Assembly: GCA_963931865.1 (NCBI GenBank)
Contig: OZ007505.1
Span: 14,863,495-14,927,494, forward strand
Reading direction: 5' to 3'
Source of the DNA: Axinella damicornis
Taxonomy: Eukaryota > Porifera > Demospongiae > Axinellida > Axinellidae
Length of the DNA: 64,000 bases
Part shown: in pieces, positions 3,336 to 47,492 of the stretch
Numbering within the stretch: position 1 is the first letter of the stretch
Layout of the letters: each line of letters starts with the position of its first letter
Notes under the pieces: model-generated
Told to the model about the DNA's origin: nothing
The model's input: only the letters and a program-made list of their open reading frames with translations
Database searches by the model: none
Made by a program: the position numbers and the translations under genes

Positions 3336-6062
3336 TCACTGATGGGATGCCGCCCTGTACTTGGCTTTGCTCTTGTTCTGGTAGTAGGCATGGTCGTCCA
3401 CAAAGTTGGATCGCTGCACAGAATGTGTCTGCATCCTAGCAAGATAGAAATCATGATGTACATCGTAAATGAACAAAAGCAATTATCCACACATCACGGC
3501 ACAAGACACTGTAAAGTGGTACCAGACATTGGAAGCTGACATATGATGTACGGAAAATTACTTTAGTGTTAAACGAGGGGCAACCGCACTCCTGGTAGCC
3601 GCGTTGGAAACGGTTGCAACTCGCTGGACGCGCAACCGTTCGGTATTGCAGCTCATTCCAATTAACGCACATGTCACGTGAGGACCATGCTCAGCTAGTC
3701 GTCGATCGATATGTCGAGTCAGCAATGGCGTCCAAAAGTAAGACAAGAGCTTATTACAGTGCTAACAACTTTGCCAGCACGGTGAGTTTTGGCATGTAAG
3801 CGTCAGTCAACGATAGCGATCACGGCTGTGTGGTCAGAATCTTTGTGGGGCCTTCATAAGACTGTACTGGCAACCAACATCGAAGAGAGCGATCGAGCAA
3901 TGGCGGCCGACGGTATGACAAAAGCGCTTGTATCTCTGCCACCAAGGTGAGTTACTGCACAATTATTTTGATTTTGTGTCACTGCATCATAGCGATCACG
4001 ACGGTGTAGTCAGAATCTTTGTAGGCCATTCGGAAGTAGTCAAACGTTTATTATTTAGATTAATTAGATTATTTACGAGGGGCAACCGCACTCCTGGTAG
4101 CCGTTTGCAACCCCGGTTGCGACTCGCCGTAGCGAAACTAAATATTGCAATTCGTTCCAATTAACGCACAGGCCACGTGGCAACCACGCTCAGTCGATCG
4201 CGAGCAATGGCGACCAAAAGGACGACAAGAAATTATTACAGCACTCACAACTTAGCCAGCACGGTGAGTTTTGGCATGTAAGCGTCAGTGAACGACAGTG
4301 ATCACGGCCGTGTGGTCAGAATCTTCGTGTGCCTTTCCAAAGAACGGTACTGCCACCGGAAGTCGAAGAGAGCGCTCGAGCAATGGCGGCCAACGGCGAG
4401 ACAAAAGAGTTCCTATCTCCACCACCAAGGTGAGTTTCAGCACAATTATTTTGATTTTGTGTCACTGCATCATAGCGATCACGACGGTGTAGTCAGAATC
4501 TTTGTAGGCCATTCCGAAGTAGTCAAACGTTTATTATATTATATTATATTATATTACATTACGCGGCACTTTATTTCCTATACCAGGAGTGTAAGATTAC
4601 ATTACGCGGCACAATTTTTCCCCTACCAGGAGTGTAATAAATGTTGTCCCAACAGTACATTTGATTTGATACTGATGAGATAGACAGTTGCAGAGCTGAG
4701 CTACTAGAAGTCATCCTTGGTGGAAACAACTGCAGCAGTCTACATATGACACAGGAAAAACTACCTGTAAATGTGGGACAAGAACGGCACCGTCATCGTC
4801 AAAGCTGCACTGTGATAGCACCGTCTGCTCGCCCGTTCGGGTCCGTAGTGAGACTACTTCACTTTTGGAATATTACGTTATTTCCTGCACAGAAAACACC
4901 TACGGGCACACCTCTACACCGGAGAATCGCTGAGAAGTTGTCTCTCCGTGGACTCGAACAGGTGGGCAGACGGTGTTGACACAGATGCTTACGGTGGCCG
5001 TCCAGTCCCGTATCTACTGGCAGTTTTTCCTGTGTGACTACCCAATAATCAATCATGACAGCAGGCGCTTACTTGCTATGCATGTAGAGTTTTCCATGCC
5101 CAAGGTACGACTCTTTGGACTTCATGGAATCTAAGCTCCTCTTCAGATCTTCAATGAGAGCCTGCGATGGTCCAAGAAGAACAAGCAAATAGATACATGA
5201 GAGTTAGCAGAATGGTGTGGCACAGAGATCTTATTAATGCTTCCGGCTCCACTTTAGTTAGTGACTGTAATGCTCATGTGAGGATACAAGAGGCTGCACT
5301 TCATAAACTATAGTCGGACTACACACAGTGGCAAAAAGCCGGATGGCTGAAGCTTGGGAATGAGGCTACATACCTTGCAGTAATCACTCCCCGCTGTCCT
5401 AGAGCCCTCCAAGGTAGCAATGGCATCCTTCAACACTGTCTTGGCTTCTGCCAACTTGCCTGTTTTGAAAGGCATACAAAACTGAATCAATACCAACTCG
5501 AGACTCGACATTCATGCACCCATTTGGATGATGTATGATTTCACACACGATTCTACCTTAAATGCCTTCTCTCATTTCCTATCTGTTACCCAATTCAACG
5601 CAACATTGGAGTCCCAAGAATGACATAGACACACCAACAGGGACGAGAGAGACACCAAAGGCAATATATACATATACACACATACACCAAAAATTATGTT
5701 ACACATGCACATAATCATACACCCAGAGATATTGAAGATTCATGTACGTACCTTGGTCTGCAAGAGGCTCCGCCTTCTTCAGAGCTGCTGTTGCTATGAT
5801 ACGGTTTCTCTGGATGTCCACCTGCTCATTTGGTACTCCCCTCTCCCCATCTGCACGCAAAGAACACACCACCACACAGTGACACTGATGAGCCATACAA
5901 TACACACGCATGCATACACGCATGCACACACACACATGCATACACACCCATGCCAATCAACGAACGAACACGTACACACACATGCATGCGTGCACAAACA
6001 CACACATCACACACATGCACACACACACGCGCGCGCACACGCATGTACGCACACACATACAT

Positions 6063-6142
<80 letters not shown>

Positions 6143-8819
6143 GTCCTACTGAGTGTGAGCTCTTGTGTGAGAGTGTCCAGAGCTGAAGTGATGACATTGA
6201 AATAGGACAGTGTAACAACAAGGGCAGTGTCCGGCTGTGGTGAGGGGAGAATAGGAAGCTTCAGCTCCAGGACAATGTCCCTCTCCTCCTCCGACTGGAT
6301 ATCCCCCATGGGGATCTCACAACTGTGAGAGTGTGAGGGTGTGCATGTGAGGGTGAAGGTTGTGAGGGCTGAATGAAAGTGCGTGTGTGCACTAACTAAA
6401 AAGACAACAAAATAACACATGTACCCACCGTACATATGCGCAGTAGAATGTTAAATGTTAGTCTAACAAGTGCTGTTTTCAGTGTGGACTCTCTGGAATC
6501 TGCACACAAACTACAGCTTACCCTAGGGAGCGGAGCTCTAAGACTTAATCAAACTTTCAATTTGTGGTCAAAACTTTACTAAAATAGAACCCCTCCCTGC
6601 ATATTTCACATTTATTGGTAACTGCAAGTGGTAGCTCCTACTAGTATAGAGCAACTGATAGGGCAAATCCACCTTTCCGAGTAATGCTTCATGCCTGCTT
6701 TATTCTCCTTGTGGATACTTGTGTATACTGCAGTTGACTCCAATTGCATCCACCAGCTCATATTTATGGCCAGGTCCAATTAATGCTCGCGACATCACCT
6801 TATTTTGACATTATGGTAACCACTTTTTCCTACGTCAGGTGTAGTTGCCAAGTGCATTAGCATGAGGCTCTGAAGGGGATCTACTCTCACTATTTGCGTA
6901 CGTACGTACGTACGTACGTACGTACAAACCTGTCACGCCCAGGAATGTTGATAATGTTGTAGGTTTCCTGCCGGTCATTGAGTTTGATTTGCCACAATGC
7001 GAGAGTTACAACTTTGAGACTCAGATCAGTGGACGAGCTCGCGGTGCCTCCAGGGCTTGCAGAGCTCGGAGCAGCTACATATGGAGTCAAACAGTGAGCA
7101 CTGTCAACATCTGTTTGTACCACAAATCCACAAGGTCTCGCATAGCCAAAGGCTAGGGTACAAGCGAGTGGGGCCTGCAGAGCTAGCTCAGATCTAAACG
7201 TGGAGTCCAACAGTGAGTGCAGTCAACTTCTTTATCTCGGCTCCACACTCTCAAACTCACACTAGCTAGATCGATTGTGTACAAGTAGATACTCGTAAGC
7301 ACGTGGTCAGGTCATGCATACACATACGGCGTGCGCAAGGCATGATGCGAATACATATTTCTAGTAACTACACAAAATAAGGGTGTTCAAAAACAAAAGC
7401 AAACTCTCAACACGGGGTCATTATCACTCAATCCTCCCACTTCGCTCACGTCTTGTTAGCCGTTGTCCAGTTGACAGCTCTGTTAGCGTGCAAAGCTGTG
7501 ATGGTGTTTCCTCCCTGGGCCTCCAGCTTCAGAGAGAGGTTCTGTCCCATCACACTCAGCAGACCACCCAGGCAGTCCGCAAATGACTCTGGGATCTGGG
7601 CAGCGGGAGAAGGGAAGAAGAGAGAAGGGAGAGAGAGGTGGAGAAGGAGGACGGATGTGTGTAGAGGAATGGAAAATGATGTGCTTGGCTGTTTGCATAA
7701 ACAAACATTTAGTCATAATAAATAGTGAATCCAGGGTAACGTCTCCATGACTCCATCCCTCACTCCCTCTCTCCCTCCATCCCTTTAACAATAGTGGACA
7801 TCTACATATAACATCGTTCACCTCCGAAAGTATGCTTGTGGGGTAGCTAATTTGAAGGCTTCTTCAGAGAATTGGAAGGTTACTTTCAAAAGCATTCTGC
7901 GAAGAACGCTGGGTTTGTTTCTAAGCATGTACATTTCCGAAAAGCTTCTGGAGCTTCACTTGGATCTTGCAGAGCTCCGTTTAGGTCTTTTTGCGGCGGA
8001 CATTCAGCAGAGTAATGGAAACGGTTTACAAAAGTTGCTTCATTCTTAAAGATGCACACCATATCAGGTTGGGCAAAACACATTTACAGGTACTCATCTG
8101 CAGAAATCCCCAACGTATCGTCGAGTCCCCTCTACTCACTGCTACAACAACAGGACATAGCTGGTGTGAGCTGCACTAACACAACAGTGAGTTACACGCG
8201 GAGGAGTACTGAAGCATTGAAGCACCAGTGTCGTGAAATATATCCCATTGGTTATGACTCCTCAGAGAAGACAAGGCTCACTGCATGTCCAGTGCTCAAT
8301 CACATGCACGTGATGTTCATGCACACATTGAAATACCTTACTACAGTATGTGTATCTTCTCCCAGAAGCAAGCAATGCTTAATTGCCATGTTACAATATG
8401 ACTGAATATAGGTCCTGCTACCGCATCATGCAGTTGCTGCCAGTGAATCAGCAACTTACATGTACCCTCATATTGCACCAGAAGGAGCTACTAAGCAGAC
8501 AATTAAGATTGACACCTATTCAACGGGTGCCATCGGGTGGCATCTTACAGACCATGAATAGTACAAACCCAGGTGAAGAAGCAGTTGAGTACCGTTTGCT
8601 ACCAGGTGTAAATCTCTGAGCTACGGTTGTAGGCCTAGTCCTATACCACTAGCGTCGTTCCCAGGCCTACCATCATGTGAGGATATAGAGCGGGGAGGGG
8701 GGAGGGGGGAGGGGGGCAAATAAGTACAAACACTGGCCGAGCAGCGAGTCTGGACTAGCGGTGAAGTGCTCAAACCCCAACTGGACGATAAAGTGATCCA
8801 GGACCTGGTGAACTGACCA

Positions 8820-8901
<82 letters not shown>

Positions 8902-11900
8902 ATGTCCACCTGTTGTCACTCATGTGATGAATAATACCAGGCCTTCACCATTTCACTGTTCTTCCACTTCCTTGTATTATTGTCAGCGTAAACCAAAGAA
9001 CGGAAAACGGGGAAGGTCTGGGAATGAGTTTACCATAACACAACACAACACACACACACACACGCAGGCACACACGTGCATACACACACACATATACACA
9101 CACACACACACGTGCACACATACACAGACACCCACCTTCTCATTGGAATCAATGTAGTAGTAGACGCCTCCCCCTTGGGTTGAAATGACTTCAAGCAGGT
9201 TGGAGTCGTGATCAGAGCCAAAGCCAAAGGTGTACACGGTGCCCTCAAACTGCAGAGAGAATGACCACGCCACAAGACATAGTGCATTAATGCAACACAC
9301 TTGTATGCTATAGCAGTGTGCTACATGCTTACACAGTACTGAGCCAGAGAGATTATTAGCCATGCAGTGTGCAGCTATCATGCTATATGTGTTAGCCTCA
9401 TTCCCAGGCCCACGCGGCCGGGGAACGAGGCTAGCTGTGTGTATTAGATATCTATCCTAAGGGAGGGGGAGATGAGCACGCATGAACACTCCCCTAGTGA
9501 ACCACTGTGAACACTAAGGCTAAAGAAGGATCTCTCTTTGCAAGTGCCCAGCGTATTTGAGGTAAGGCCGGACTGGACTGAGTGCTGCCATAAGTGAAAT
9601 GAATCTGAATGTGACGCTGCAATCAAGTGATTCAAGACAACAAACTCCACGTGCTTCATGCCCCCAAAATATAGTCCCTCTTAGACTGATCAGGTACTGT
9701 ATGATCTATATAGAACGTAGCAACAGCTCGACAACAACTTAATTAGTGGCTCAACATGTTGAAGCCACTAGGGCACTACAGTAATGTGCTCCTTACACTA
9801 CACAGTAGCACATTCAACTGAAGTACAGTGCTAAGTGGTATTGTATTTCTATCATGTTACAATATGGCTATATATAGCACATTCAACTGTAATACAGTGC
9901 TCAGTGGTATTGTATAATATGGCTATGAGCATGAGCAATCCAGTGCCGGGCAGCTCTCTGCTGCTGTACCCGTCCGCCTCAGCTGCTGCTCCCTGATTGC
10001 ATCGATCCGCTTCAACTGCTGCTCCCTGTTTGCGTCTGCTTCAGCTGCTACTCTCTGATTGCGTCCGCTTAAGCTGCTGCTCCCCGATTGCGTCCACTTC
10101 AACTGCTGTTCCCTGATTGCATCTGCTTCGGCTGCTGCTCAGCTCCACGATTGCATCCAATTGTAGCCCCAGCTGTTCTGGAACGTTCCAGCCCATTCTC
10201 AATGTTCTCTAACCTTCTTCACAGAGTTCGAGGTTCAGTAAATTGAAGTACGAAGGTCACGCATCACTAGTCTAGTCCCACCCCATGAACATCCCACTTC
10301 CGTCACACACACCTTAAAATGTATTGATGTGATTGTGAAGTCCACTGCCCAAACTTGTGAAAGCAGAAAGCAACTGGCTTGTGGAGGATAGCATAAGGAA
10401 ACTAGACTTCACAGAAATCCTTGGGGGAGCTGAGCATAAGTGAATGTATATACAGCTCTCCACAAAAGGCAGAGAATTAGGCTCTTATCCCCTTCCCTTT
10501 ACCTTCCTGCCATCCCCTCCTGCAGGAGGATCCTGCAGTTTCCTCATCTCTCCCAGGATCCCTTCCTTGGTCTTGATCCCCTCATTGGCGAGCCCGTCAG
10601 TCAGCAGGAGTACCGACTGCACCTGCGCCCGGCTGTCATCGCCAGCAGTAACAACAATCTGCTTCATACCTTTACACGTCCAGGAGGAACAAGTCATTAA
10701 CATTAGACTGTGCATCTGCGGACCAGGGTTTAGCCTCAAACTTGTTTATGGGGTAACAGTCACTACTAGACTTAGAGCTATGACCGAGGATAATGACCCT
10801 GAATATGGTGGATGCAGTGAGGCATGGGTAGTGAGGCATGGATGTGGCTTGTCACATTTCTTCACGGTCACCCATCAGCAGTTAGTGTAGACACAGTCAT
10901 GAGCAGTTTGTGGAGATTGTGATCCCACTCTAAAGTATGTTGTGACCACCCCTTGATACATGTACTTGTGTATGGAAGCCCAGTGAAGCCTACTCTAGTC
11001 AAGTACTTCAAGTAGTTGCTAAAATAACTATGCAAGGCAACCACAAAGAAGCCCAATGACAGTCAGAATGGCTATCATTGATCACCATGCAGCTGCTGCT
11101 GCATGTTTGCATCCCTCCACAGGCCCGTAGGAAGCAATTTTATTTTGGTCGCTTTGAGCGAGGTGGTGCAATGGCGCACACAGCTCGCCAACCGAGAAGC
11201 GGAGCAAGTGTGCAAAGCCGACAGACATAGGGGGGTCTGTGGGCCCTCCCCCAGGAAAATTTTGAATTTTAGACCTTCTGAGATCGTTTCTGGTGCAATC
11301 TTGGGATGAGATTCAACAACTTGCTAGCCAGACTGAGCATATTATTGGTCCGGCGGCCGCCGCACCTGCCGCACCTACTAATAGCGGCCCTGCTCCACAA
11401 CAACACCATCTCCTGACTGTGCAAACAACTTCATGCTTTCTCAATATTAGTGACTGCACAGTTCACGTCTTCCTGTGGATGGCTACTCAAAAACTTTCCG
11501 ACACATTACAACCCCCTACCCACATTCCAGCAACCCCCTATATACCCACCTTCCATCAACCCCCTACCCACCTTCCATCAACCCCCTACCCACCTTCCAT
11601 CAATCCCCTACCCACCTTCCATCAACCCCCTACCCACCTTCCATCAACCCCCTACCCACCTTCCATCAACCCCTTACCCACCTTCCAGCAACCCCCTACC
11701 CACCTTCCATCAACCCCCTACCCACCTTCCATCAACCCCTTACCCACCTTCCATCAAACCCCTACCCACATTCCAGCAACCCCCTACCCACATTCCAGCA
11801 ACCCCCTACCCACCTTCCATCAACCCCTTACCCACATTCCAGCAACCCCCTATATACCCATCTTCCATCAAACCCCTACCCACCTTCCATCAACCCCCTA

Positions 11901-13163
11901 CCCACCTTCCATCAACCCCCTACCCACCTTCCAGCAACCCCCTACCCACCTTCCATCAACCCCCTACCCACCTTTCATCAACCCCCTACCTACCTTCCAT
12001 CAACCCCTTACCCACCTTCCATCAACCCCCTACCCACCTTCCAACAACCTCATTACCACCTTCCGTCAAACCTCTACCTTCCATCATCCCCCTACCCACC
12101 TTCCATCAGCCCGCCACAGAGGTTAGTACAGGAGCCATCCGTAATGGATTTTATGAGCATCTTGGTCCGTTCTTTATTGTCCTTGGTCATCTTGGTGAGG
12201 CCAAACTCCAGCTTCACACCAGTGTCATATGTCACCAGGGATAGTCGGTCACACTCCTTCACTGCATGGGGGGGGGGGGGGGGGGGGGGGGGGGGGATAT
12301 GCTTTGCCCATGTGTCCACTTTTGTCTACCTAAGCATGCGACTAGACCTCCCAGGCATTCCCCAGAAAAGCGATCAAAGACTGGGGGTGGGAATGGCCTG
12401 GGAACACGCCAGTGCAGTTCTTTCCACCTGATCGCGGAATTTTATGAAAGATTGACAAGGCGCGCGCAGAATACGCAAAACTGATTTCCGTGTAAATGCA
12501 ATTTTCGACGTTGCTATGGTATGTGATTTATTTTCCGTATACTACCCGTGTTACGTGGGATGACACTCCCATTTATGCCATAGCCAGAGCTGCGACCGGG
12601 GTCAAGAAATCTTGACTATCATTTTTGCTGCTTGACCACTTGACTGCATCGCAAGACTCTTGACCGTTTGACTGCGCTGTATTTCAGCCGTTGACCGCTC
12701 ATAGTATACGGAAGAATGCGTAGTGACTCCATCCCTTCCTTAGTATACGGGGTCAAGATTCGCCGATAAGCCCAGTCGCAGCTTTGACTACGGCGTCTGT
12801 GGGAGTGTCACTCCCTCGATTGAGCTAATTGGGATCCCTACAGTAAAACATCATGAGATATTTAGGCCATTGCAAGAGCCCCACCCACACAGGAAGTAAT
12901 CTAAATTGGACAAATAAACACTCACACTGATCAATGACAAACAGCAGCGTCTTCTTAACCAGATCCAGTTTCTTGCCTCGCATGGAACCGCTCTTGTCAA
13001 TCACGGCAGCAATGTCCACCGGGGAGCGAGAGGTGGGCTCGTAGAACGGCGCGCGCAGGGAGGCGATGGCCCAACATGGCTGCTCCTTGGAGGGAGGGTA
13101 ACATGCGAATTCCGCTGCTGCGGTCAGCGTGATGCGATCAGTTACTTCTGCAGTAGTTGCCAT
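3336..13163 (-). CDS. vWA-domain protein, 11 exons
   Basis: Exons read on the minus strand: 13163-12926, 12261-12100, 10669-10503, 9249-9136, 7595-7450, ~6967-6930, 6322-6141, 5850-5752, 5459-5374, 5161-5073, 3435-3336; all have GT donors and AG acceptors. Phases join cleanly except at exon 5/6, where the exon 6 acceptor is uncertain by one base. About 470 residues. A MIDAS-type vWA domain fills exons 1-4: DKSGSM (DxSxS), TNLCGG (Thr) and LLTDG (Asp), then the conserved FGFGSDHDSNLLEVIS. Exons 5-7 carry IPESFADCLGGLLSV and GDIQSEEERDIVLELKLP, typical of intracellular vWA proteins of the plant WAV3-like/metazoan vWA type. Exons 8-11 are helical (NRIIATAALKKAEPLADQ; KTVLKDAIATLE) and end KAKYRAASHQ-stop. 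No signal peptide or TM segment is visible, so it is probably cytosolic and metal-dependent in partner binding. Partner unknown. The start is the ATG at 13163, after which the vWA strand follows. Confidence 0.82.
3571..4073 (+). mobile_element. Exon-carrying MITE, copy 1
   Basis: Begins ACGAGGGGCAACCGCACTCC and is followed head-to-tail by copy 2. An inverted third copy lies at 25507-26122. It sits in intron 10 of the vWA gene, antisense to it. It contains two short ATG-initiated frames that each run into a good splice donor: ATG 3725 to donor at 3782 (reading MASKSKTRAYYSANNFAST) and ATG 3900 to donor at 3947 (MAADGMTKALVSLPPR). Both are conserved in the other copies. Confidence 0.75.
4074..4653 (+). 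mobile_element. Exon-carrying MITE, copy 2, with partial tandem terminus
   Basis: Starts TTTACGAGGGGCAACCGC. It carries the same two frames: ATG 4207 to donor 4264 (MATKRTTRNYYSTHNLAST) and ATG 4383 to donor 4430 (MAANGETKEFLSPPPR). Its 3' end is a doubled terminus, ACGCGGCAC...CCAGGAGTGTAA, repeated at 4560-4596 and 4606-4640. That 3' motif is also found at the edge of copy 3. Confidence 0.72.
5905..6140. repeat. (CA)n microsatellite abutting vWA exon 7 donor
   Basis: Imperfect CA/CATG repeats pass into a pure (CA)n tract that ends at 6140. On the minus strand exon 7 ends at 6141 and the donor GT is itself the first unit of the (GT)n tract. Confidence 0.95.
6898..6926. repeat. (GTAC)n microsatellite at vWA exon 6 donor
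   Basis: Seven GTAC units. On the minus strand they follow the exon 6 donor (GACAG, then GTTTGTACGTAC). Confidence 0.9.
8822..8901. repeat. Homopolymer run, 80 C
   Basis: Uninterrupted C tract on the plus strand inside intron 4 of the vWA gene. The exact length in the genome is uncertain because homopolymers assemble poorly. Confidence 0.9.
9047..9130. repeat. CA-rich microsatellite at vWA exon 4 donor
   Basis: Imperfect (CA)n with CACGTGCA interruptions. On the minus strand it begins five bases after the exon 4 donor (GAGAAG, then GTGGGTG). Confidence 0.9.
9950..10290 (+). repeat. Dispersed repeat with degenerate GCTGCTCCCTGATTGCATCC units and a heat-shock-like motif
   Basis: Several ~26-bp units of CTGCTGCTCCCCGATTGC type, followed by TTCTGGAACGTTCC (10176-10189) and a shared tail GAGTTCGAGGTTCAG. 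The same module occurs at 50700-50930 and 57985-58215, upstream of the two zinc-finger genes. Here it lies in intron 3 of the vWA gene. Confidence 0.75.
10176..10189. promoter_or_regulatory. Heat shock element-like motif
   Basis: TTCTGGAACGTTCC fits the three-unit HSE pattern TTCnnGAAnnTTC exactly. Conserved in the two other copies of the surrounding repeat. HSF binding is inferred. Confidence 0.45.
11497..12112. repeat. 22-bp minisatellite (~28 copies) copying the vWA exon 2 donor
   Basis: The plus-strand unit is CAACCCCCTACCCACCTTCCAT. On the minus strand this is TTGATGGAAG followed by GTGGGTAGGGG. It matches the true end of exon 2 (CTGATGGAAG, then donor GTGGGTAGGGG) at its right border. 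Variants: AACCCCTTA, CAGCAACC and TATATACCC units. The translated frames (THLPSTPYP...) are a by-product. Confidence 0.92.
12268..12296. repeat. Homopolymer run, 29 G
   Basis: Read on the minus strand this is a 29-C tract ending CATGCAG at the exon 2 acceptor (12262), so it occupies the polypyrimidine-tract position. Confidence 0.9.
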
Positions 13164-15530: not shown

Positions 15531-15799
15531 GCTCTTCTTAAAGTGAGATATACATTCTGACACTATGGAGCAAGGAATTGGAATCAGCTGCCAGATGCTG
15601 TCAAGACCACCCAAAACCATTGCACTCTACAAATCTAGTTACAGGTCTGGTTGCTGGAATGTATACCCATTCCATGTTTGAGTTTTGTGTTTTGTTCACC
15701 AAGAACAAATTTAATCTCCACACTGCTTCCACCCCTCTGTAGAGCGCACAATCCGGCAGCAAAGCCATCAGGACATCGGGACACACTAGTCTACCTATA

Positions 15800-16618
15800 G
15801 AGGGTATATGTGGTGGCCGAGACTGGACAAGGATATTGAGGTGTATGTGAAAGAGTGTTACATTTGCCAGTCCACGAGGAAGTCTCCACCAGTAGTGCCA
15901 CTTCATCCTTGGTCTTGGCCTGAGAAGGTTTGGTCGAGAGTTCACATCGACTATGCTGGGCCAGTGGAAGGAAAGATGTTTCTCTTGCTAGTACCTCAAC
16001 TTCTGCTGCAGCCATTGAACTATTGCGAAAATCGTTTGCAGCATTGGGGTTACCGGAAGTGATTGCATTGGACAATGCCATGACATTTACGAGTGAAGAG
16101 TTTGCTGAGGTCTTGAAGAATAACGGGATACATCATATCCGTTCGTCTCCATATCATCCTGCGTACATTTCACAGGTAGTACCTCAGACTGGGACTCAGG
16201 ACTCGGAAAATCTGTCAACTCCAGTGTCTGATGTCGACCCGAGTGCTACTGAGATCTCATCACAACGACCTACAGAACAGGCATCAGACCATCCTATGCC
16301 AGAGCTGAGAAGATCAACTCGGGTGAGACACCCACCGGCTGGTTATACTGAACAGTGTCATGTTATTAGTTTGGATGCTGTACAACTAATTTGGTGTGTT
16401 GTAAACTAGAGAAGGATTGTAATGTATTGACATTGTGGGTTATGTAACCAGGAAGTTGCGGTATTGTACGTCACCATATTGTGTGTATTCAAGTAGACAT
16501 AAGTCGTCAGTTAGCCAGTCAGTCTGTACGTCGTGCACTGTGTATTGTCGAGCTTGTTAAAGAGATATTTGTCCCTAAGAATTGTGACTTAGCTGGGGTT
16601 TGCATGCAGCATATAACA
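15800..16618 (+). mobile_element. Ty3/gypsy-type retrotransposon fragment: integrase and 3' LTR
   Basis: Inserted between units of the exon array and truncated at its 5' side. The frame at 15805-15990 reads MWWPRLDKDIEVYV, CYICQS, HIDYAGP (first catalytic Asp). It shifts to another frame for LGLPEVIALDNAMTF (second Asp) and SSPYHPA. An internal deletion then removes the catalytic Glu region and joins RRSTRVRHPPAGY, a usual gypsy integrase tail. A likely 3' LTR runs 16418-16618 (TGTAATG...ATATAACA). Inactive. Confidence 0.8.
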
Positions 16619-19121
16619 ACTCACCAAGAACAATTTTACTCTCAACGATGGTTCTACACCCCTCCGTAGAGCGCACAATCAGGTAGCAAAGCCATCCGGG
16701 CACAAAAGCTACAGTAATGAAAAGAGGAATAGATTTGCATGTTCACTCACCTCAATCTCCATGATGGCTCTCCACCCGTCCGTAGAGCGCACAAATCTAG
16801 CAGCATAGCCATCAGGGCGTCGGGATACGGTACCTACAGTAACGAAAAGAAACTACATTTGCGTGACCACTCACCTACAACAAACTCAATCTCCATGATG
16901 GTTCTCCACCCCCGTAGAGCACACAAACCCGTCAGCAAAGCCATCAGGATTTCGGGACACACTAGTGTACCTACAGTAATGAAAAGAGGAATAGATTTGC
17001 ATGTCCACTCACCTAGAACAAATTCAATCTCCATGATGGTTTTCCACCCTCCGTAGAGCGCACAAATCCAGCAGCATAGCAATCAGGGCGTGGGGACACG
17101 GTACCTACAGCAACGAAAAGAAAACTAGATTTGCATGTTCACTCACCTACTACAAACTCAATCTCCATGATGGTTCTCCACCCGTCCGTAGAGCGCACAA
17201 ATCTAGCAGCATAGCCATCAGGGCATCGGGATACGGTACCTACACTAACGAAAAGAAAACTAGATTTGCGTGACCACTCACCTACAACAAACTCAATCTC
17301 CATGTGGTTCTCCACCCTCGCAGAGCACACAAACCCGTCAGCAAAGCCATCAGGATTTCGGGACACACAAGTGTACCTATAGTAATGAAAAGAGGAATAG
17401 ATTTGCATGTCCACTCACCAATAACAAATTCAATCTCCATGATGGTTCTCCACCCTCCGTAAAGCGCAAAATCCGGCAGCAAAGCCATCGGGACATCGGG
17501 ACACACTAGTCTACTTGTAGTAATGAAAAGAGGAATAGATTTGCATGTCCACTCACCTACAACAAATTCAATCTCCATGACGGTTCTCCACCCTCCGGAG
17601 AGCGCACAAATCCAGCAGCATAGCCATCAGGGCGTCGGGACACGGTACCTACAGTAACGAAAAGAAAACTAGATTTGCATGTTCACTCACCTAGAACAAA
17701 TTCAATCTCCATGATGGTTCTCCACCCCCCGTAGAGCACACAAACCCGTCAGCAAAGCCATCAGGATTTCGGGACACACCAGTGTACCTATAGTAAAGAA
17801 AAGAAAACTAGATTTGCATGTCCACTCACCTACAACAAACTCAATCTCCATGATGGTTCTCCACCCGTCCGTATAGCGCACAAATCCAGCAGCATAGCCT
17901 TCAGGGCGTCGAGACACAATAGCTACAGTTACGAAAAGAGGAATGGATTGGCATGTTCACTCACCAATAACAAATTTAAGTTCCATGATGGTTCTCCGGA
18001 TCCACCTCTCCGTAGAGCGCACAATCCGGCAGCAGCAGCATGGCCATAGGACATCCGGACACACTAGTCTACCTGTAGTAATGAAAAGAGGAATAGATTT
18101 GCATGTCCACTCACCTAGAACAAATTCAATCTCCATGATGGTTCTCCACTCTCCGTAGAGCGCAAAATCCGGCAGCAAAGGCATCGGGACATCGGGACAC
18201 ACTAGTCTACTTGTAGTAATGAAAAGAGGAATAGATTTGCATGTCCACTCACCTAGAACAAATTCAATCTCCATGATGGTTCTCCACCCTCCGCAGAGCG
18301 CACAAATCCAGCAGCATAGCCATCAGGGCGTCGGGATACGGTACCTACAGTAACGAAAAGAAAACTAGATTTGGATGTTCACTCACCTAGAACAAATTCA
18401 ATCTCCATGATGGTTCTCCACCCCCCGTAGAGCACACAAACCCGTCAGCAAAGCCATCAGGATTTCGGGACACACTAGTGTACCTATAGTAACGAAAATA
18501 GATTTGCATGTCCACTCACCTACAACAAACTCAATCTCCATGATGGTTCTCCACCCGTCCGCATAGCGCACAAATCCAGCAGCATAGCCTTCAGGGCGTC
18601 GAGACACAGTAGCTACAGTTACGAAAAGAGGAATAGATTGGCATGTTCACTCACTAATAACAAATTTAATTTCCATGATGGTTCTCCGGATCCACCCCTC
18701 CGTAGAGCGCACAATCCGGAAGAAGCAGCATGGCCATAGGACATCGGGACACGAGTAGTTTACCTATAGTAATGAAAAGAGGAATAGATTTGCATGCATG
18801 TCCACTCACCAATAACAAATTCAATCTCCATGATGGTTCTCCACCCTCCGTAGAGCGCAAAATCCGGCAGCAAAGCCATCGGGACATCGGGACACACTAG
18901 TCTACTTGTAGTAATGAAAAGAGGAATAGATTTGCATGTCCACTCACCTAGAACAAATTCAATCTCCATGACGTCATGGTTCTCCACCCTCCGGAGAGCG
19001 CACAAATCCAGCAGCATGGCCATCAGGGCGTCGGGACACGGTACCTACAGTAACGAAAAGAAAACTAGATTTGCATGTTCACTCACCTAGAACAAATTCA
19101 ATCTCCATGATGGTTCTCCAC

Positions 19122-19325
19122 CCCTCAGCTACACTAAGGACAGTCTACGAAAAGCGAATACTTGCTGATAATTAGAAAATGCGGTATATTCGCCATGACG
19201 TCATAGAAAAACAACGCTCGAGCGCAGTGGAGCGCTCGAACGTTTAACGCGCTCGAAGGACAAGCACGACGGAAAGAAGTGTTCGCTGTGGATCTTCAGC
19301 TGGCAGTAAGTGAAGCGTTGTGTGC
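19122..19325. mobile_element. ~200-bp insertion interrupting the exon array
   Basis: Unrelated sequence replaces the expected unit spacing. It contains ATGACGTCAT (a full CRE palindrome, 19195-19204) and CGAGCGC/GCGCTCG inverted repeats. Its family is unknown. Confidence 0.55.
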
Positions 19326-22300
19326 CCCCGTAGAGCACACAAACCTGTCAGCAAAGCCATCAGGATTTCGGGACACACCAGTGTACCTACAGTAAAGAAA
19401 AGAAAACTAGATTTGCATGTCCACTCACCTACAACAAACTCAATCTCCATGATGGTTCTCCACCCGTCCGTATAGCGCACAAATCCAGCAGCATAGCCTT
19501 CAGGGCGTCGAGACACAATAGCTACAGTTACGAAAAGAGGAATGGATTGGCATGTTCACTCACCAATAACAAATTTAAGTTCCATGATGGTTCTCCGGAT
19601 CCACCTCTCCGTAGAGCGCACAAATCCAGCAGCATAGCTATCAGGGCGTCGGGATACACTAGTCTACCTGTATTAATGAAAAGAGGAATAGATTTGCATG
19701 TCCACTCACCCACAACAAACTCAATCTCCAATATGCTTTTCCACCAGTCCGTACACCGCACAAATCCAGCAGCATAGCCTTCAGGGCATCGGGACACACT
19801 AGTCTACCTGTAGTAATGAAAAGAAAACCAGATTTGCATGTTCACTCACCAATAACAAATTCAATCTCCATGACGGTTCTCCACCCTCCGTAGAGCGCAC
19901 AAATCAAGCAGCATAGCCATCAGGGCGTCGGGATACGGTACCTACAGTAACGAAAAGAAAACTAGATTTGCATGTTCACTCACATAGAACAAATTCAATC
20001 TCCATGATGGTTCTCCACTCCCCGTAGAGCACACAAACCCGTCAGCAAAGCCATCAGGATTTCGGGACACACTAGTGTACCTATAGTAAAGAAAAGAAAA
20101 CTAGATTTGCATGTCCACTCACCTACAACAAACTCAATCTCCATGATGGTTCTCCACCCGTCCGTATAGCGCACAAATCCAGCAGCATAGCCTTCAGGGC
20201 GTTGAGACACAATAGCTACAGTTACGAAAAGAGGAATGGATTGGCATGTTCACTCACCAATAACAAATTTAAGTTCCATGATGGTTCTCCGGATCCACCC
20301 CTCCGTAGAGCGCACAATCCGGCAGCAGCAGCATGGCCATAGGACATCCGGACACACTAGTCTACCTGTAGTAATGAAAAGAGGAATAGATTTGCATGTC
20401 CACTCACCCACAACAAACTCAATCTCCAATATGCTTTTCCACCAGTCCGTACACCGCACAAATCCAGCAGCATAGCCTTCAGGGCATCGGGACACACTAG
20501 TCTACCTGTAGTAACGAAAAGAAAACTAGATTTGCATGTCCACTCACCAATAACAAATTCAATCTCCATGACGGTTCTCCACCCTCCGTAGAGCGCACAA
20601 ATCAAGCAGCATGGCCATCAGGGCGTCGGGATACGGTACCTACAGTAACGAAAAGAAAACTAGATTTGCATGTTCACTCACATAGAACAAATTCAATCTC
20701 CATGATGGTTCTCCACTCCCAGTAGAGCACACAAACCCGTCAGCAAAGCCATCAGGATTTCGGGACACACCAGTGTACCTATAGTAAAGAAAAGAAAACT
20801 AGATTTGCATGTCCACTCACCTACAACAAACTCAATCTCCATGATGGTTCTCCACCCGTCCGTATAGCGCACAAATCCAGCAGCATAGCCTTCAGGGCGT
20901 TGAGACACAATAGCTACAGTTACGAAAAGAGGAATGGATTGGCATGTTCACTCACCAATAACAAATTTAAGTTCCATGATGGTTCTCCGGATCCACCCCT
21001 CCGTAGAGCGCACAATCCGGCAGCAGCAGCATGGCCATAGGACATCCGGACACACTAGTCTACATGTAGTAATGAAAAGAGGAATAGATTTGCATGTCCA
21101 CTCACCTACAACAAATTCAATCTCCATGATGGTTCTCCACTCTCCGTAGAGCGCACAAATCCAGCAGCATAGCCATCAGGGCGTCGGGATACACTAGTCT
21201 ACCTGTATTAATGAAAAGAGGACTAGATTTGCATGTCCACTCACCTACAACAAATTCAATCTCCATGACGGTTCTCCACTCTCCGTAGAGCGCACAAATC
21301 CAGCAGCATGGCCATCAGGGCGTCGGGATACGGTACCTACATTAACGAAAAGAAAACTAGATTTGCATGTTCACTCACCTAGAACAAATTCAATCTCCAT
21401 GATGGTTCTCCACCCCCCGTAGAGCACACAAACCCGTCAGCAAAGCCATCAGGATTTCGGGACACACCAGTGTACCTATAGTAAAGAAAAGAAAACTAGA
21501 TTTGCATGTCCACTCACCTACAACAAACTCAATCTCCATGATGGTTCTCCACCCGTCCGTATAGCGCACAAATCCAGCAGCATAGCCTTCAGGGCGTCGA
21601 GACACAATAGCTACAGTTACGAAAAGAGGAATGGATTGGCATGTTCACTCACCAATAACAAATTTAAGTTCCATGATGGTTCTCCGGCTCCACCCCTCCG
21701 TAGAGCGCACAATCCGGCAGCATGGCCATAGGACATCGGGAAAGGAGTAGTATACCTATAGTAATGAAAAGAGGAATAGATTTGCATGTCCACTCACCCA
21801 CAACAAACTCAATCTCCATGATGCTTTTCCACCAGTCCGTACACCGCACAAATCCAGCAGCAGAGCCATCAGGGCGTCGGGACACGGAACCTACAGTTAC
21901 GAAAAGAAAACCAGAATTGCATGTTCACTCACCAATAACAAATTCAATCTCCATGATGGTTCTCCACCCTCCGTAGAGCGCAAAATCCGGCAGCAAAGCC
22001 ATCAGGACATCGGGAAACACTAGTCTACCTATAGTAATGAAAAGAGGAATAGATTTGCAAGTCCACTCACCTACAACAAATTCAATCTCCATGATGGTTC
22101 TCCACCCTCCGTAGAGCGCACAAATCCAGCAGCATAGCCAACAGGGCGTCGGGATACGGTACCTACATTAACAAAAAGAAAACTAGATTTGCATGTTCAC
22201 TCACCTAGAACAAATTCAATCTCCATGATGGTTCTCCACCCCCCGTAGAGCACACAAACCCGTCAGCAAAGCCATCAGGATTTCGGGACACACCAGTGTA

Positions 22301-24215
22301 CCTATAGTAAAGAAAAGAAAACTAGATTTGCATGTCCACTCACCTACAACAAACTCAATCTCCATGATGGTTCTCCACCCGTCCGTATAGCGCACAAATC
22401 CAGCAGCATAGCCTTCAGGGCGTCGAGACACAATAGCTACAGTTACGAAAAGAGGAATGGATTGGCATGTTCACTCACGAATAACAAATTTAAGTTCCAT
22501 GATGGTTCTCCGGATCCACCTCTCCGTAGAGCGCACAATCCGGCAGCAGCAGCATGGCCATAGGACATCCGGACACACTAGTCTACCTGTAGTAATGAAA
22601 AGAGGAATAGATTTGCATGTCCACTCACCTAGAACAAATTCAATCTCCATGATGGTTCTCCACCCTCCGTAGAGCGCAAAATCCGGCAGCAAAGCCATCA
22701 GGACATCGGGAAACACTAGTCTACCTATAGTAATGAAAAGAGGAATAGATTTGCAAGTCCACTCACCTACAACAAATTCAATCTCCATGACGGTTCTCCA
22801 CTCTCCGTAGAGCGCACAAATCCAGCAGCATGGCCATCAGGGCGAAGGGATACGTAACCTACAGTAACGAAAAGAAAACTAGATTTGCATGTTCACTCAC
22901 CTAGAACAAATTCAATCTCCATGATGGTTCTCCACCCCCCGTAGAGCACACAAACCCGTCAGCAAAGCCATCAGGATTTCGGGACACACCAGTGTACCTA
23001 TAGTAAAGAAAAGAAAACTAGATTTGCATGTCCACTCACCTACAACAAACTCAATCTCCATGACGGTTCTCCACTCTCCGTAGAGCGCACAAATCCAGCA
23101 GCATGGCCATCAGGGCGTCGGGATACGGTACCTACATTAACAAAAAGAAAACTAGATTTGCATGTTCACTCACCTAGAACAAATTCAATCTCCATGATGG
23201 TTCTCCACCCCCGTAGAGCACACAAACCCGTCAGCAAAGCCATCAGGATTTCGGGACACACCAGTGTACCTATAGTAAAGAAAAGAAAACTAGATTTGCA
23301 TGTCCACTCACCTACAACAAATTCAATCTCCATGACGGTTCTCCACCCTCCGTAGAGCGCACAAATCCAGCAGCATAGCTATCAGGGCGTCGGGATACAC
23401 TAGTCTACCTGTATTAATGAAAAGAGGAATAGATTTGCATGTCCACTCACCTACAACAAATTCAATCTCCATGACGGTTCTCCACTCTCCGTAGAGCGTA
23501 CAAATCCAGCAGCATGGCCATCAGGGCGTCGGGATACATAACCTACAGTAACGAAAAGAAAACTAGATTTGCATGTTCACTCACCTAGAACAAATTCAAT
23601 CTCCATGATGCCCCGTAGAGCACACAAACCCGTCAGCAAAGCCATCAGGACACCGGGGCACACTAGTCCACCTATAGTAATGAAAAGAGGAATAGATTTG
23701 CATGTGCACTCACCTGCAACAAATTTACAATCCACGATGGTTCTCCACCCCTCCAGAGAGCATACAATCCCTGTGGCAAAGCAATCAAGACATTGTGACA
23801 CAATAGCAACAGTAACGAAAAGAACAATAGATATGCATGTTCACTCACCTAGAACAAATTCAATCTCCATGATGGTTCTCGATCCACCCCTCAGTAGAGT
23901 GCACAAATCCAGCAGCAAAGCCATCAGGACGTCGGTACACGCTAGCTACAGTCACGAAAAGAAGCATGTTCACTCACCTAGAACAAATTCAATCTCCATG
24001 ATGGTTCTCCACCCCACCGTAGAGCGCACAAACCTGGCAGCAAAACCGTCAGGACGTATCGGGACACTATAGCTACAGTAACGGAAAGAAGTCCATGTTC
24101 ACACGCCTAGAACAAATTCAATTTCCATGATGGTTCTCCACCCCTCCGTAGAGCGCACAAACCCATCAGCAAAGCCATCAGGACATCGGGACACAATAGA
24201 ATCTCCACGATGGTT

Positions 24216-25140
24216 CGGCACCCCTTCGTCTCAGTCGATCGCCGTACAATCCATGGCTTGCCATTAGCGCAGCACGGGGACATTTCTTGGAAGTTATCTC
24301 AGCGTGTGGATTCCGTCTCTTGTCGCGGTTAAGCGTGCATTCTCTACTCAGCAGTTGACTACGAAATGAGGAAACTGATGATGAGAGGCAGTCCATGAAA
24401 TTAATTTTAAAATTCCCGCCAAAAAAATTACACCCACCAACATTGACCAATCAGAATGTAACAATCCGCGGGCTTGCCTGGGAAATCCGTTTCTAGGCGC
24501 ATAACTAGATATCAACCTTGTAAGGAATATCACGGGTATTGCAGAACTCATTACCGTTGATTGTGTACCGTAGTGTATACTTTTCTAAACTTCATGCCAG
24601 TACAATGCAAAGATATAGAGTTGCTACTGCTTCGATGAAGCAGCTACAGTAGCTCAGGATATAACGGTTACTGGTCTGGCCAGGAAAATGCTGCATGCAT
24701 GCACGAGCAATCTCAACCGGTGTCAGGGTGGGCGTGTGCAATCAGCTGGTCATACACCGCCACATTCACAATTATTGAGAGGGTGGGGCTGACTCCTGAT
24801 GGTCCATGCGCACCATGGATGCAGAGGCCGTCAACAGTGTGCCCACTGTTGATGGCCTGTTCAGTCACCACAAAGGCATAGCCCCGACAACAGCCAGCAC
24901 ATCTCATTTGGTAAACAGGTACCTTATAATCAATGGGCACAACATTTGCCAACAAATTATAACACACAACATGAAAGCCAAACCAGAATAATGGTTTGCT
25001 CAATGCTTGGCAGTAATTATGACTGCAGCTAATTCCCGTGTCACTACAGACAAAGTCTTGATGGCTTGCTAAACAGTCATTGTTGTAGCTATAACTGCTG
25101 CCATGGTAGAAGTACTCGTTCAACCACAACCCAATATGTC
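24216..25140. other. No gene recognised
   Basis: Unique sequence between the exon array and the GGGA block. Open frames on both strands are short and show no family motif. Confidence 0.4.
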
Positions 25141-25142
25141 CA

Positions 25143-25363
25143 CTGTGGAAGGAGGGAGGGAGGGAAGGAGGGAGGGAAGGAGGGAGGGAGGGAGGGAGCT
25201 AGGGAGGGAGGGAGGGAGGGAGGGAGGGAGGGAGGGAGGGAAGGAGGGAGGGAGGGAGGGAGGGAGGGAGGGAGGGAGGAGGGAGGGAGGGAGGGAGGGA
25301 GGGAGGGAGGGAGGGAGGGAGGGAGGGAGGGAGGGAGGGAGGGAGGGAGGGAGGGAGGGAGGG
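25143..25363. repeat. (GGGA)n microsatellite
   Basis: ~220 bp of GGGA with AAGG interruptions, ending directly at the LINE reverse-transcriptase fragment. Confidence 0.95.
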
Positions 25364-33689: not shown

Positions 33690-35818
33690 GAGAGAGAGAG
33701 AAGGAGAGGAGGGCAGTGAGGTCTGACAGGAGAGGGCAGTGAAATCTGAGAGGAGGAGAGGGCAGTGAGGTCTGAGAGGAGAGGGCAGTGAGGTCTGAGA
33801 GGAGAGGGCAGTGAGGTCTGAGAGGAGGAGAGGGCAGTGAGGTCTCTGAGGAGGAGAGGGCAGTGAGGTCTCAGAGGAGGAGAGGGCAGTGAGGTGTGAG
33901 AGGAGACGGCAGTGAGGTCTGAGAGGAGGAGAGGGCAGTGAAATCTGAGAGGAGGAGAGGGCAGTGAGGTCTGAGAAGAGAGGGCAGTGAGGTCTGAGAG
34001 GAGGAGAGGGCAGTGAGGTCTGAGAGGAGGAGAGGGCAGTGAGGTCTGAGAAGAGAGGGCAGTGAGGTCTGAGAAGAGAGGGCAGTGAGGTCTGAGAGGA
34101 GGAGAGGGCAGTGAGGTCTGAGAGGAGAGGGCAGTGAGGTCTGAGAGGAGGAGAGGGCAGTGAGGTCTGAGAGGAGGAGAGTGCAGTGAGGTCTGAGAGG
34201 AGGAGAGGGCAGTGAGGTCTGAGAGGAGAGGGCAGTGAGGTCTGAGAAGAGAGGGCAGTGAGGTCTGAGAGGAGGAGAGGGCAGTGAGGTCTGAGAGGAG
34301 AGGGCAGTGAGGTCTGAGAGGAGGAGAGGGCAGTGAGGTCTGAGAGGAGGAGAGTGCAGTGAGGTCTGAGAGGAGGAGAGGGCAGTGACGTCTGAGGGCA
34401 GTGAGGTCTGAGAGGAGGAGAGGGCAGTGAGGTCTGAGAGGAGGAGAGGGCAGTGAGGTCTGAGAGGAGGAGAGGGCAGTGAGGTCTGAGAGGAGGAGAG
34501 GGCAGTGAGGTCTGAGAGGAGGAGAGGGCAGTGAGGTCTGAGGGGAGGAGAGGGCAGTGAGGTCTGAGAGGAGGAGAGGGCAGTGAGGTCTGAGAGGAGG
34601 AGAGGGCAGTGAGGTCTGAGAGGAGGAGAGGGCAGTGAGGTCTGAGAGGAGGAGAGGGCAGTGAGGTCTCAGAGGAGGAGAGGGCAGTGAGGTCTGAGAG
34701 GAGGAGAGGGCAGTGAGGTCTGAGAGGAGGAGAGGGCAGTGAGGTCTGAGAAGAGAGGGCAGTGAGGTCTGAGAGGAGGAGAGGGCAGTGAGGTCTGAGA
34801 GGAGAGGGCAGTGAGGTCTGAGAGGAGGAGAGGGCAGTGAGGTCTGAGAGGAGGAGAGTGCAGTGAGGTCTGAGGGGAGGAGAGGGCAGTGAGGTCTGAG
34901 AGGAGGAGAGGGCAGTGAGGTCTGAGAGGAGGAGAGGGCAGTGAGGTCTGAGAGGAGGAGAGGGCAGTGAGGTCTGAGAGGAGGAGAGGGCAGTGAGGTC
35001 TGAGAAGAGAGGGCAGTGAGGTCTGAGAGGAGGAGAGGGCAGTGAGGTCTGAGAGGAGAGGGCAGTGAGGTCTGAGAGGAGGAGAGGGCAGTGAGGTCTG
35101 AGAGGAGGAGAGTGCAGTGAGGTCTGAGAGGAGGAGAGGGCAGTGAGGTCTGAGAGGAGGAGAGGGCAGTGACGTCTGAGGGCAGTGAGGTCTGAGAGGA
35201 GGAGAGGGCAGTGAGGTCTGAGAGGAGGAGAGGGCAGTGAGGTCTGAGAGGAGGAGAGGGCAGTGAGGTCTGAGAGGAGGAGAGGGCAGTGAGGTCTGAG
35301 AGGAGGAGAGGGCAGTGAGGTCTGAGAGGAGGAGAGGGCAGTGAGGTCCGAGAGGAGGAGAGGGCAGTGAGGTCTGAGAGGAGAGGGCAGTGAGGTCTGG
35401 GAGGAGGAGAGGGCAGTGAGGTCTGAGAGGAGGGAGAGGGCAGTGAGGTCTGAGAGGAGGAGAGGGCAGTAAGGTCTGAGAGGAGGAGAGGGCAGTGAGG
35501 TCTGAGAGGAGAGGGCAGTGAGGTCTGAGAGGAGGAGAGGGCAGTGAGGTCTGAGAGGAGGAGAGGGCAGTGAGGTCTGAGAGGAGGAGAGGGCAGTGAG
35601 GTCTGAGAGGAGGAGAGGGCAGTGAGATCTGAGAGGAGAGGGCAGTGAGGTCTGAGAGGAGGAGAGGGCAGTGAGGTCTGAGAGGAGAGGAGGGCAGTGA
35701 GGTCTGAGAGGAGGAGAGGGCAGTGAGGTCTGAGAGGAGAGGAGGGCAGTGAGGTCTGAGATGAGGAGAGGGCAGTGAGGTCTGAGAGGAGGAGAGGGCA
35801 GTGAGGTGTGAGAGGAGG
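33690..35818. repeat. 23/26-bp minisatellite (~80 copies) resembling the aconitase exon 3 acceptor
   Basis: The plus-strand long unit is GAGAGGAGGAGAGGGCAGTG then AGGTCT; a 23-bp short unit lacks GGA. On the minus strand it reads CTCCTCTCAG then ACCTCACTGCCC. This closely parallels the adjacent real junction CTCTCTCTCAG then ACTCCAGTGCCC (exon 3). A 751-codon open frame across it is a by-product of the repeat. Confidence 0.92.
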
Positions 35819-35825
35819 AGCTTAA

Positions 35826-40989: not shown

Positions 40990-41660
40990 CCAACCGAAGT
41001 GGTTTTAGCGCGCGCTAAAAACCAATCGAAGTGGTTTTAGCGCGCGCTAAAACCAACCGAAGTCGGTTTTATCGCGCGCTAAACAAACCAAAGTGTTTAT
41101 CGCGTGCTAACACAAAACCAAGTGGTTCTATCGGGCGCTAATGCAAAACCAAGTGGTTCTAGTCTATCGCGCGCTAAAACAAAAGCAAGTGGTTCTATCG
41201 CGCGCTAAAACAAAACCAAGTGGTTCTATCGCGCTATAAAAAAAACCTAATGGTTCTATCGCGCGCTAGAACACAACCAAGTGGTTCTATCGCACGCTAA
41301 CACAAAACCAAGTGGTTCTACCGCGCGCTAATGCAAAACCAAGTGCATCGCGCGCTAAAACAAAACCAAGTGGTTTTATCACGCGCGAAATCGAAAATAA
41401 GTGGTTCATCACGCGCTAAATCAAACGGATTTTATCACAAGCTCGAGCTAACTAACGTTTTATCGCGCGCTAAATCAAAAAAGTGGTTTATCACGCAAAA
41501 TGATTGTGGTTTATCGCGCGCCAAATCAAAACTTAGTGGTTTTATCGCGTGCTAAAACAAAACCGATTGTGGTTTTATCGCGCGCTGAAAGAAAACGTTT
41601 TATCGCGCGCTGAACGAAACTAAGTGGTTCTATCGCCTCAATACTAGTATATCGCACGCT
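40990..41660. repeat. Left inverted arm: palindromic ~33-bp repeats
   Basis: About 18 degenerate units of CCAAGTGGTTCTATCGCGCG followed by CTAAAACAAAA. The core TAGCGCGCGCTA is palindromic. Repeats in the right arm run in the opposite orientation. Confidence 0.9.
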
Positions 41661-47290: not shown

Positions 47291-47492
47291 GGTTGGGATT
47301 TTTGTGCACGTGCAGAGAGGCGTACAGCACGCCCCTCGTTTTTTAGCGCAGTTTTGAAACAGATGGTTTGCCATAGATCCACACAATCCGCATGTGGGCA
47401 CGTTTACACAAATGCATGCCTTTGATCTTGATCTGCTCAGATCGAATAACACACAGTGCTCCAAGTGACTCTTCCAGCTCTCTGCACTCTCT

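Follow-up and report, generated by a model that had tools for sequence, protein, structure and literature searches.

What is made from a tandem array of exon-shaped units on the minus strand of a sponge chromosome? The window analysed here is a 64,000-nt stretch of the Axinella damicornis genome (contig OZ007505.1, positions 14,863,495-14,927,494 of the forward strand, assembly GCA_963931865.1), and all coordinates are positions within it (Table 1). A sequence-only reading had described the array as phase-neutral exons, each with its own donor and acceptor, that could be spliced in frame into a repeat protein or a hypervariable exon cassette. The array itself is confirmed, with about 54 minus-strand units, each consisting of an exon-like segment and a 42-nt GT...AG segment. 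TRF delimits it as 16619-19123 and 19328-24199 (periods of ~134-139 and ~272), broken at ~19124-19327. Of 51 motif-defined intron-like segments, 43 are exactly 42 nt long; because the motif demanded splice-like ends, these early, motif-bound counts were replaced by a profile scan for the splice-site test. That scan gives 56 matches in the window array, 53 of them full-length, and GT and AG are both kept in 48 of the 53. The commonest exon segment lengths are 92 (n=10), 97 (n=10), 93 (n=9), 95 (n=4) and 96 nt (n=4), among others. The first donor is GC instead of GT, and the copy in the window appears to be in partial decay.

Table 1. Features of the array and its flanks (positions in the 64,000-nt window)
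Feature	Position	Strand	Remarks
Main tandem array	16619..24199	-	~53 units, exon-like segment of 83-109 nt plus mostly 42-nt GT...AG intron-like segment
Detached last unit, decayed, beyond retroelement sequence	15690..15805	-	from sequence
Retroelement sequence with integrase-core fragment	15806..16600	.	ORF 15930-16409 (+); separates last unit from array
Promoter-like element	24324..24567	-	common to other array loci (alignments of 8 and 19 copies; 50 merged loci)
Inverted CCAAT box (ATTGG)	24447..24451	-	within promoter-like element
CDE-4 nt-CHR tandem, TGGCGG GAAT TTTAAA	24406..24421	-	motif and spacing as in the excerpted text of PMC5716687
Predicted leader/first exon into first unit	24107..24390	-	start predicted; donor GC in this copy
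Upstream module common to other array loci	24889..25338	-	overlaps ORF 24713-25129

Phase neutrality does not hold in the window: 17 of 48 exon segments have a length divisible by three, the one third expected by chance, and every one of these is open in phase 1-1. At other loci (C and L designations), multiples of three number 29/109 in C6 (mostly off frame), 42/84 in C2 (the segments being off frame or closed) and 32/69 in C7, most L039 units are 97 or 95 nt long, and lengths are mostly in frame in C11 (22/23), C1a (29/36), C1b (38/46) and C6b (77/92). In the last four arrays most exon segments measure 84 or 87 nt and most of those are open, as a protein built from phase 1-1 exons would require, and splicing in silico yields an ORF of 268 aa in C1a and several of 209-244 aa in C6b (8 of 16 listed), but these long ORFs start away from the 5' end. 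The window copy spliced in the same way gives ORFs of at most 58 aa from its first six ATGs. Distinct substitutions in the best-framed arrays are about as nonsynonymous as under no selection (N/S 0.89, phase 1-1, pooled; 0.66-1.28 in the remaining five frames), and stops arise among them at the neutral rate (11 seen, 8.2 expected), so that neither N/S nor stop counts detect codon selection in these arrays. By codon position the substitutions number 91, 64 and 64 (pooled length classes), with the excess at position 1 and no enrichment of third positions. There is no Pfam match above the cut-off, and each of the five relatives in the protein database runs on through the introns. The evidence gives no support to a repeat protein or exon cassette, which is very improbable. 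The remark that units with six C at one site carry a stop is right in substance: there are 97-nt units in which the G run of the coding strand is longer, so that the frame is shifted and a stop is read in it. They reflect plain indel variation, and an on/off class is not supported.

The spread of substitutions over the intron is uneven, with fewer at the splice sites. A profile without any GT/AG requirement gave 783 matches; 719 were full-length, in 17 loci with at least three each, and 513 were unique. Among the unique units GT/AG is changed in 2.14% of cases, versus 6.87% at other intron sites, and is the less changed class in 16 of the 17 loci (permutation p 0.00125, a value made optimistic by the relatedness of the loci and by higher-order repeats that copy variants). 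The difference is reversed in L041 (6.8% versus 4.8%) and nearly flat in C2 (3.4% versus 3.9%). Among 104 columns, the six positions of GTGAGT and the two of AG all hold ranks 2-14. Taken as a whole, the pyrimidine tract changes at 7.8%, no less than the rest, and differs only in the kind of change: a changed pyrimidine gives way to the other pyrimidine in 192 of 294 cases there, compared with 477 of 949 in the flanking exon sequence and 44 of 188 between intron positions +7 and +21. Gaps are fewer in the intron segment than in the exon segment in all eight arrays, and substitutions are fewer in seven of the eight, the window array showing the same level in both segments. Constraint appears to act on donor, pyrimidine tract and acceptor, as it would in a spliced transcription unit.

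Greater conservation of the ~42-nt segment in seven of eight arrays would also fit a regulatory array acting as DNA, with the segment and its octamer ATGCAAAT as a repeated factor-binding site. The octamer shows no special conservation, its columns changing at 5.9% compared with 2.4% for GTGAGT. Furthermore, divergent members keep the ends of the segment (in L044, L042 and L038, a donor of the GTGAGT type with RACA after it, and YAG at the acceptor, one counted L038 donor being GGGAGT) and lose its length and middle, with introns of 53-57 nt in L044 (4/4), 50-54 nt in L042 (4/4) and 118-125 nt in L038 (7/9). Repeated binding sites of this kind are accordingly the least probable of the explanations considered, with a very small chance of being correct.

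Survival of the exon shape in dozens of copies had been attributed to either function or very recent amplification. Satellite DNA and transcribed pericentromeric repeats consist of tandem monomers in higher-order repeats clustered in mid-chromosome, and the sponge arrays resemble them in all three respects. An inactive satellite, in which exon and intron of a once-transcribed gene were amplified by unequal exchange and segmental duplication and have no present function, would account for the unit order that recurs within C6b, the indels that break frame, the flanks of several kb common to several arrays and the mid-chromosome clustering. The arrays differ from satellites in their conserved upstream element, polarity and constrained splice sites, and within a single array the mutations that distinguish units avoid the splice signals, which duplication alone would not spare; an inactive satellite is thus rather unlikely, though it is the most serious of the alternatives. 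The exon-intron shape with its constrained splice sites speaks for function and not just for recent origin.

The window copy is a member of a sponge locus family. A promoter-like element of ~200 bp, in which an inverted CCAAT box is followed by CDE-4 nt-CHR in the manner of animal G2/M promoters, immediately precedes the leader and first unit in the window and is present at 50 merged loci; 38 of 47 are in the middle third of the chromosome concerned. At 10 of the 11 loci fetched for the element, unit arrays follow downstream on the same strand (the sole strand scanned); L043 has a partial element and zero units. Among hand-picked unit places, 3 of 20 lack the element in the 25 kb upstream, and none is found for a C2 array at 6.6 Mb outside that sample, so that 17 of 21 have one. 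Arrays reach ~118 units. The unit is also present in the ENA records P0121-P0125. The exact CDE-N4-CHR motif occurs in 11 of 19 aligned copies, the window included, with a TGCCGG variant in one more and no motif in 7 of the 19. DREAM/MuvB G2/M promoters carry TGGCGG-4 nt-TTTAAA or TTTGAA (PMC5716687, excerpt), and in MKI67 inverted CCAAT boxes share the promoter region with CDE/CHR and hardly affect cell-cycle timing (PMC8629999, excerpt). To judge from these excerpts, the sponge element matches such promoters in TGGCGG-4 nt-TTTAAA and inverted CCAAT, a likeness of sequence only, and it fronts tandem arrays whereas MKI67 is a protein gene. It is a putative CDE/CHR (DREAM/MuvB)-type promoter, with putative DREAM binding and G2/M expression.

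Such a promoter might instead serve multi-PDZ protein genes of which the arrays are the 5' part, with transcription continuing into PDZ exons. PDZ-like exon copies lie downstream of the arrays in C1a, C1b, C7, C6b and C11, and in C1c the element is accompanied by PDZ-like copies, the units there being no more than scattered. The odds are raised by the absence of internal stops from 22 of 23 PDZ-like matches genome-wide, and lowered by the L016 copies, which look frame-broken by eye, and by the window, which contains none of the 23. Overall, PDZ genes are an improbable explanation, if slightly less so than the repeat protein.

With somewhat better than even probability, the arrays are a sponge gene family of long, multiply spliced noncoding RNAs, and one member, partly decayed, lies in the window. 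The inverted CCAAT box and CDE/CHR tandem would drive transcription of the array, with timing linked to proliferation or the germ line; the spliceosome would excise each short intron (42 nt in the window); and repeat exons, numbering from tens to about a hundred, would be concatenated into a long noncoding RNA. The GC first donor and the sequence breaks of the window copy count against this reading, as does the absence of a stable fold in the exon consensuses. A role as nuclear or chromatin-retained repeat RNA or as small-RNA precursor is a guess, and the data favour neither. It is possible, but doubtful, that sponges have here a class of noncoding genes that has not been described before, with dozens of dispersed loci, a DREAM/MuvB-type promoter at each, arrays of up to ~118 units, and concatemer RNAs spliced during proliferation or gametogenesis and acting in mid-chromosome. 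If transcribed in this way, the loci would rank as noncoding genes of exceptional exon density in which selection acts on splicing rather than exon content, would make the reason for repeated splicing of a noncoding repeat testable, and would suggest that a noncoding family in an early-branching animal is under cell-cycle control of the CDE/CHR type. They also caution that exon-shaped tandem repeats can pass for repeat proteins.

Mouse pachytene piRNA precursor loci are A-MYB-driven, dispersed and noncoding, have a promoter type in common and include some spliced precursors. The putative noncoding RNA loci of the sponge are similar in being dispersed with a common promoter type; the mouse loci are not known to be homologous tandem exon arrays. 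The codon test and the short in-silico ORFs of the window copy support a noncoding nature; if transcribed, the loci would have repeats in spliced exons, as in a FIRRE-like repeat lncRNA. FIRRE of mammals is noncoding and has exons carrying a locally repeated domain, RRD, in 7 of 13 human and 11 of 23 mouse exons (PMC4820808, excerpt), as is proposed for the sponge RNA. The likeness is one of organisation, and FIRRE is a single locus whose repeat exons number only a handful, whereas the sponge element occurs at ~50 loci with up to ~118 units and very short introns.

Other candidates were rejected. An unspliced antisense ORF of 599 aa in C11 has no relatives that could be found, and by reasoning is unremarkable, since a 126-nt period with one open frame predicts it. 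A structured small RNA array is contradicted by four exon consensuses (typed by hand) that do not fold stably (z 0.50, -1.45, 0.62 and 1.42) and by the lack of a credible Rfam match, with zero gathering-level matches in the window and only five sub-threshold matches in L022-L023, all in L022 and outside units. A virus or prokaryote origin found no match in phages, viral contigs or genome contigs. ORF 24713-25129, overlapping the upstream module, has no Pfam match above the cut-off. Titles and abstract openings in the literature describe no such family, which is not proof of absence. A kinesin search for intron size found one exon pair on C2 ~45 nt apart, a hint that very short introns may occur in this genome.

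The window array (W) is on contig C1 of the 226-Mb, 120-contig genome, and its tandem arrangement on the minus strand, as described by the sequence-only reading, is borne out: 51 introns were recognized by motif and 56 units by profile (53 full-length). Intron-like segments, 43 of the 51 being 42 nt, typically start with GTGAGTG and end with TAG; exon-like segments range over 83-109 nt once two outsized gaps (232 and 300 nt) are set aside. The same reading held that any subset of units could be joined in frame, which is wrong: 17 of 48 exon lengths are multiples of 3.

A genome search with two units identified further arrays elsewhere, and two intron patterns (up to 3 mismatches) matched 293 and 677 genome places, overlapping in part, their reversed control patterns matching zero. 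Eight arrays were closely compared (W, C11, C6, C6b, C7, C1a, C1b and C2), among which C6b has 117-118 units in recurring order. Another locus, C1c, shares flanks with other arrays, but its unit copies are only scattered. The C2 array (L019-L021) has ~107 units with splice sites and other intron sites nearly alike, and the promoter-like element described below was not recognized there in the genome element scans.

Splice-signal constraint was measured with a profile scan that did not require GT or AG (783 matches), of which 719 full-length matches in 17 loci (at least three each, including C1c with n = 4 and L044 with n = 3; L038 and L042 had too few full-length matches and L043 none) yielded 513 unique units for comparison with their own-locus consensus. 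GT/AG sites were changed in 2.14%, other intron sites in 6.87% and exon flanks in 8.63%; the rates were 2.4% for the whole GTGAGT, 5.9% for the intron octamer ATGCAAAT and 7.8% for the pyrimidine tract, and, with the 104 columns ranked by change rate, all eight donor and acceptor sites were among the lowest 14. The share of pyrimidine changes that left a pyrimidine was 192/294 in the tract, against 477/949 for exon flanks and 44/188 for intron positions +7 to +21, tallied as units rather than events. GT/AG sites were less changed in 16 of the 17 loci, with L041 opposite and C2 nearly flat. Divergent members keep donor and acceptor with introns of 53-57 nt (L044), 50-54 nt (L042) and, in 7 of 9 cases, 118-125 nt (L038), sized with a separate hand-made motif for each (4 donors in L044, 4 in L042 and 9 in L038). 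Among the L038 donors, one reads GGGAGT, and the L038 sizes of 167 and 253 may stem from mis-pairing. We read these patterns as selection for splicing that apparently acted after amplification, because duplication spreads sequence yet offers no reason why new mutations should avoid splice sites.

A protein-coding array was considered and rejected, with substitutions near neutral expectation, exons not spared and long ORFs away from the 5' end. Among distinct phase 1-1 substitutions in the commonest in-frame length units of C11, C1a, C1b, C6b and C7 (other lengths left out; transition weight of 2 assumed), 136 were nonsynonymous (142.8 expected), 64 synonymous (60.0 expected) and 11 to stop (8.2 expected). 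Outside this pool, the C2 93-nt units have a synonymous excess (16 versus 10.6 expected) in a frame whose consensus contains a stop. Substitution is higher in exon than intron segments in seven of eight arrays and about equal in W (0.099 versus 0.101), and gaps are commoner in exon segments in all eight. When W was spliced in silico from an assumed start, the first six ATGs opened ORFs of 3, 58, 28, 7, 2 and 23 aa, and the longest of the 8 ORFs listed out of 16, at 134 aa, was far from the start; a single 268-aa ORF was obtained in C1a, and ORFs of up to 244 aa among the 8 of 16 listed in C6b, again not near the start. The five protein-database relatives of a five-exon peptide, which come from ENA records, are mechanical ORFs, because all five read through introns. 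Searching for relatives of the antisense ORF opposite the C11 array (table) found none.

A ~200-bp promoter-like element precedes the first unit (alignments of 8, then 19 copies), consisting of an inverted CCAAT box, TGGCGG, four bases, TTTAAA or TTTGAA, and a conserved stretch, followed in several copies by a conserved leader. Passages of PMC5716687 give the CDE as GGGCGG/TGGCGG and the CHR as TTTGAA/TTCGAA/TTTAAA, with a four-nucleotide spacer; according to PMC8629999, MKI67 combines a CDE and a CHR with inverted CCAAT boxes, its cell-cycle timing hardly depending on the last. CDE-N4-CHR is exact in 11 of 19 aligned copies; it is unmatched in those of L034, L036, L037, L038, L040, L043 (upstream part of the element only) and L044, and the L039 copy has TGCCGG. 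The 12 copies with a matched tandem fall into two groups by ATTGG-to-CDE distance: 8 copies with 29-31 bp and 4 with 18-20 bp. Element matches merge into at least 50 loci, a lower bound because 40 of 84 candidates were scored in one of two scans. Of the 47 loci on contigs whose length is known, which excludes three on C9 and C14, 38 are in the central third of the contig, a figure that overstates independence since the loci are clustered, against 9 of 26 hand-picked kinesin places as a rough control. The element is duplicated in tandem at some loci (L036, L039, L041).

A same-orientation element is found within 25 kb upstream of 17 of 20 hand-picked unit places (two sharing one element), or 17 of 21 counting the C2 array at 6.6 Mb, which was outside the sample and lacks the element in both scans. 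Scanning downstream on the element's strand in 11 loci fetched for the element gave 16-23 profile matches in seven, 4 in L044, 3 in L042, 1 in L038 (plus its own tandem period by TRF) and zero in L043. PDZ-domain-like exon copies occur in tandem downstream of several arrays (L016, L017, L014), and unit copies are embedded in some of them. By eye, the L016 copies that were read seem to be frame-broken, although most PDZ-like genome matches are without stop.

The best-supported reading of these sequence features is a family of predicted noncoding transcription units, in which a cell-cycle-type promoter would drive a long RNA across the array and removal of its many tiny introns would leave a concatemer RNA. 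A role as nuclear repeat RNA, by analogy with the RRD of FIRRE as portrayed in part of PMC4820808, or as small-RNA precursor would be a guess. The window copy is probably decaying, because its first donor is GC, it carries inserts and its unit divergence is the highest of the eight arrays: the array is broken, and its last unit is split off by retroelement sequence with an integrase fragment. Even so, its GT/AG sites are changed in 2.8%, versus 11.7% at its other intron sites.

Elsewhere in the window, the ~31-bp repeat arrays and integrase ORF resemble a mobile element whose subterminal repeat arrays are inverted, the zinc-finger pair is apparently a recent duplicate, and the 751-aa frame is probably mechanical.

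Coordinates of features in the window and in fetched genome stretches
Feature	Sequence	Coordinates	Strand	Description
Ubiquitin-like protein	window	23-1474		4 of 120 listed relatives named to species, all sponges (Corticium, Oscarella, Oopsacas, Ephydatia); host taken to be a sponge
22-bp repeat	window	11509-12112		~27 copies; all three plus-strand frames open
Break in W	window	~19124-19327		
26-bp repeat	window	33702-35820		~84 copies; 751-aa open frame on minus strand
~31-bp repeat array	window	40992-41636		opposite orientation to the second, ~5 kb apart
Integrase-core ORF rva_4	window	45296-45841	minus	flanked by the two ~31-bp arrays
~31-bp repeat array	window	46806-47294		same repeat
C2H2 zinc-finger ORF	window	50987-51958		very similar by eye to the next, ~7 kb apart
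C2H2 zinc-finger ORF	window	58459-59688		
Antisense ORF	L009 (holds C11 array)	5267-7066	minus	126-129-nt period; 599 aa unspliced, ~42-aa repeats
PDZ-like exon copies	L016	2760-9000
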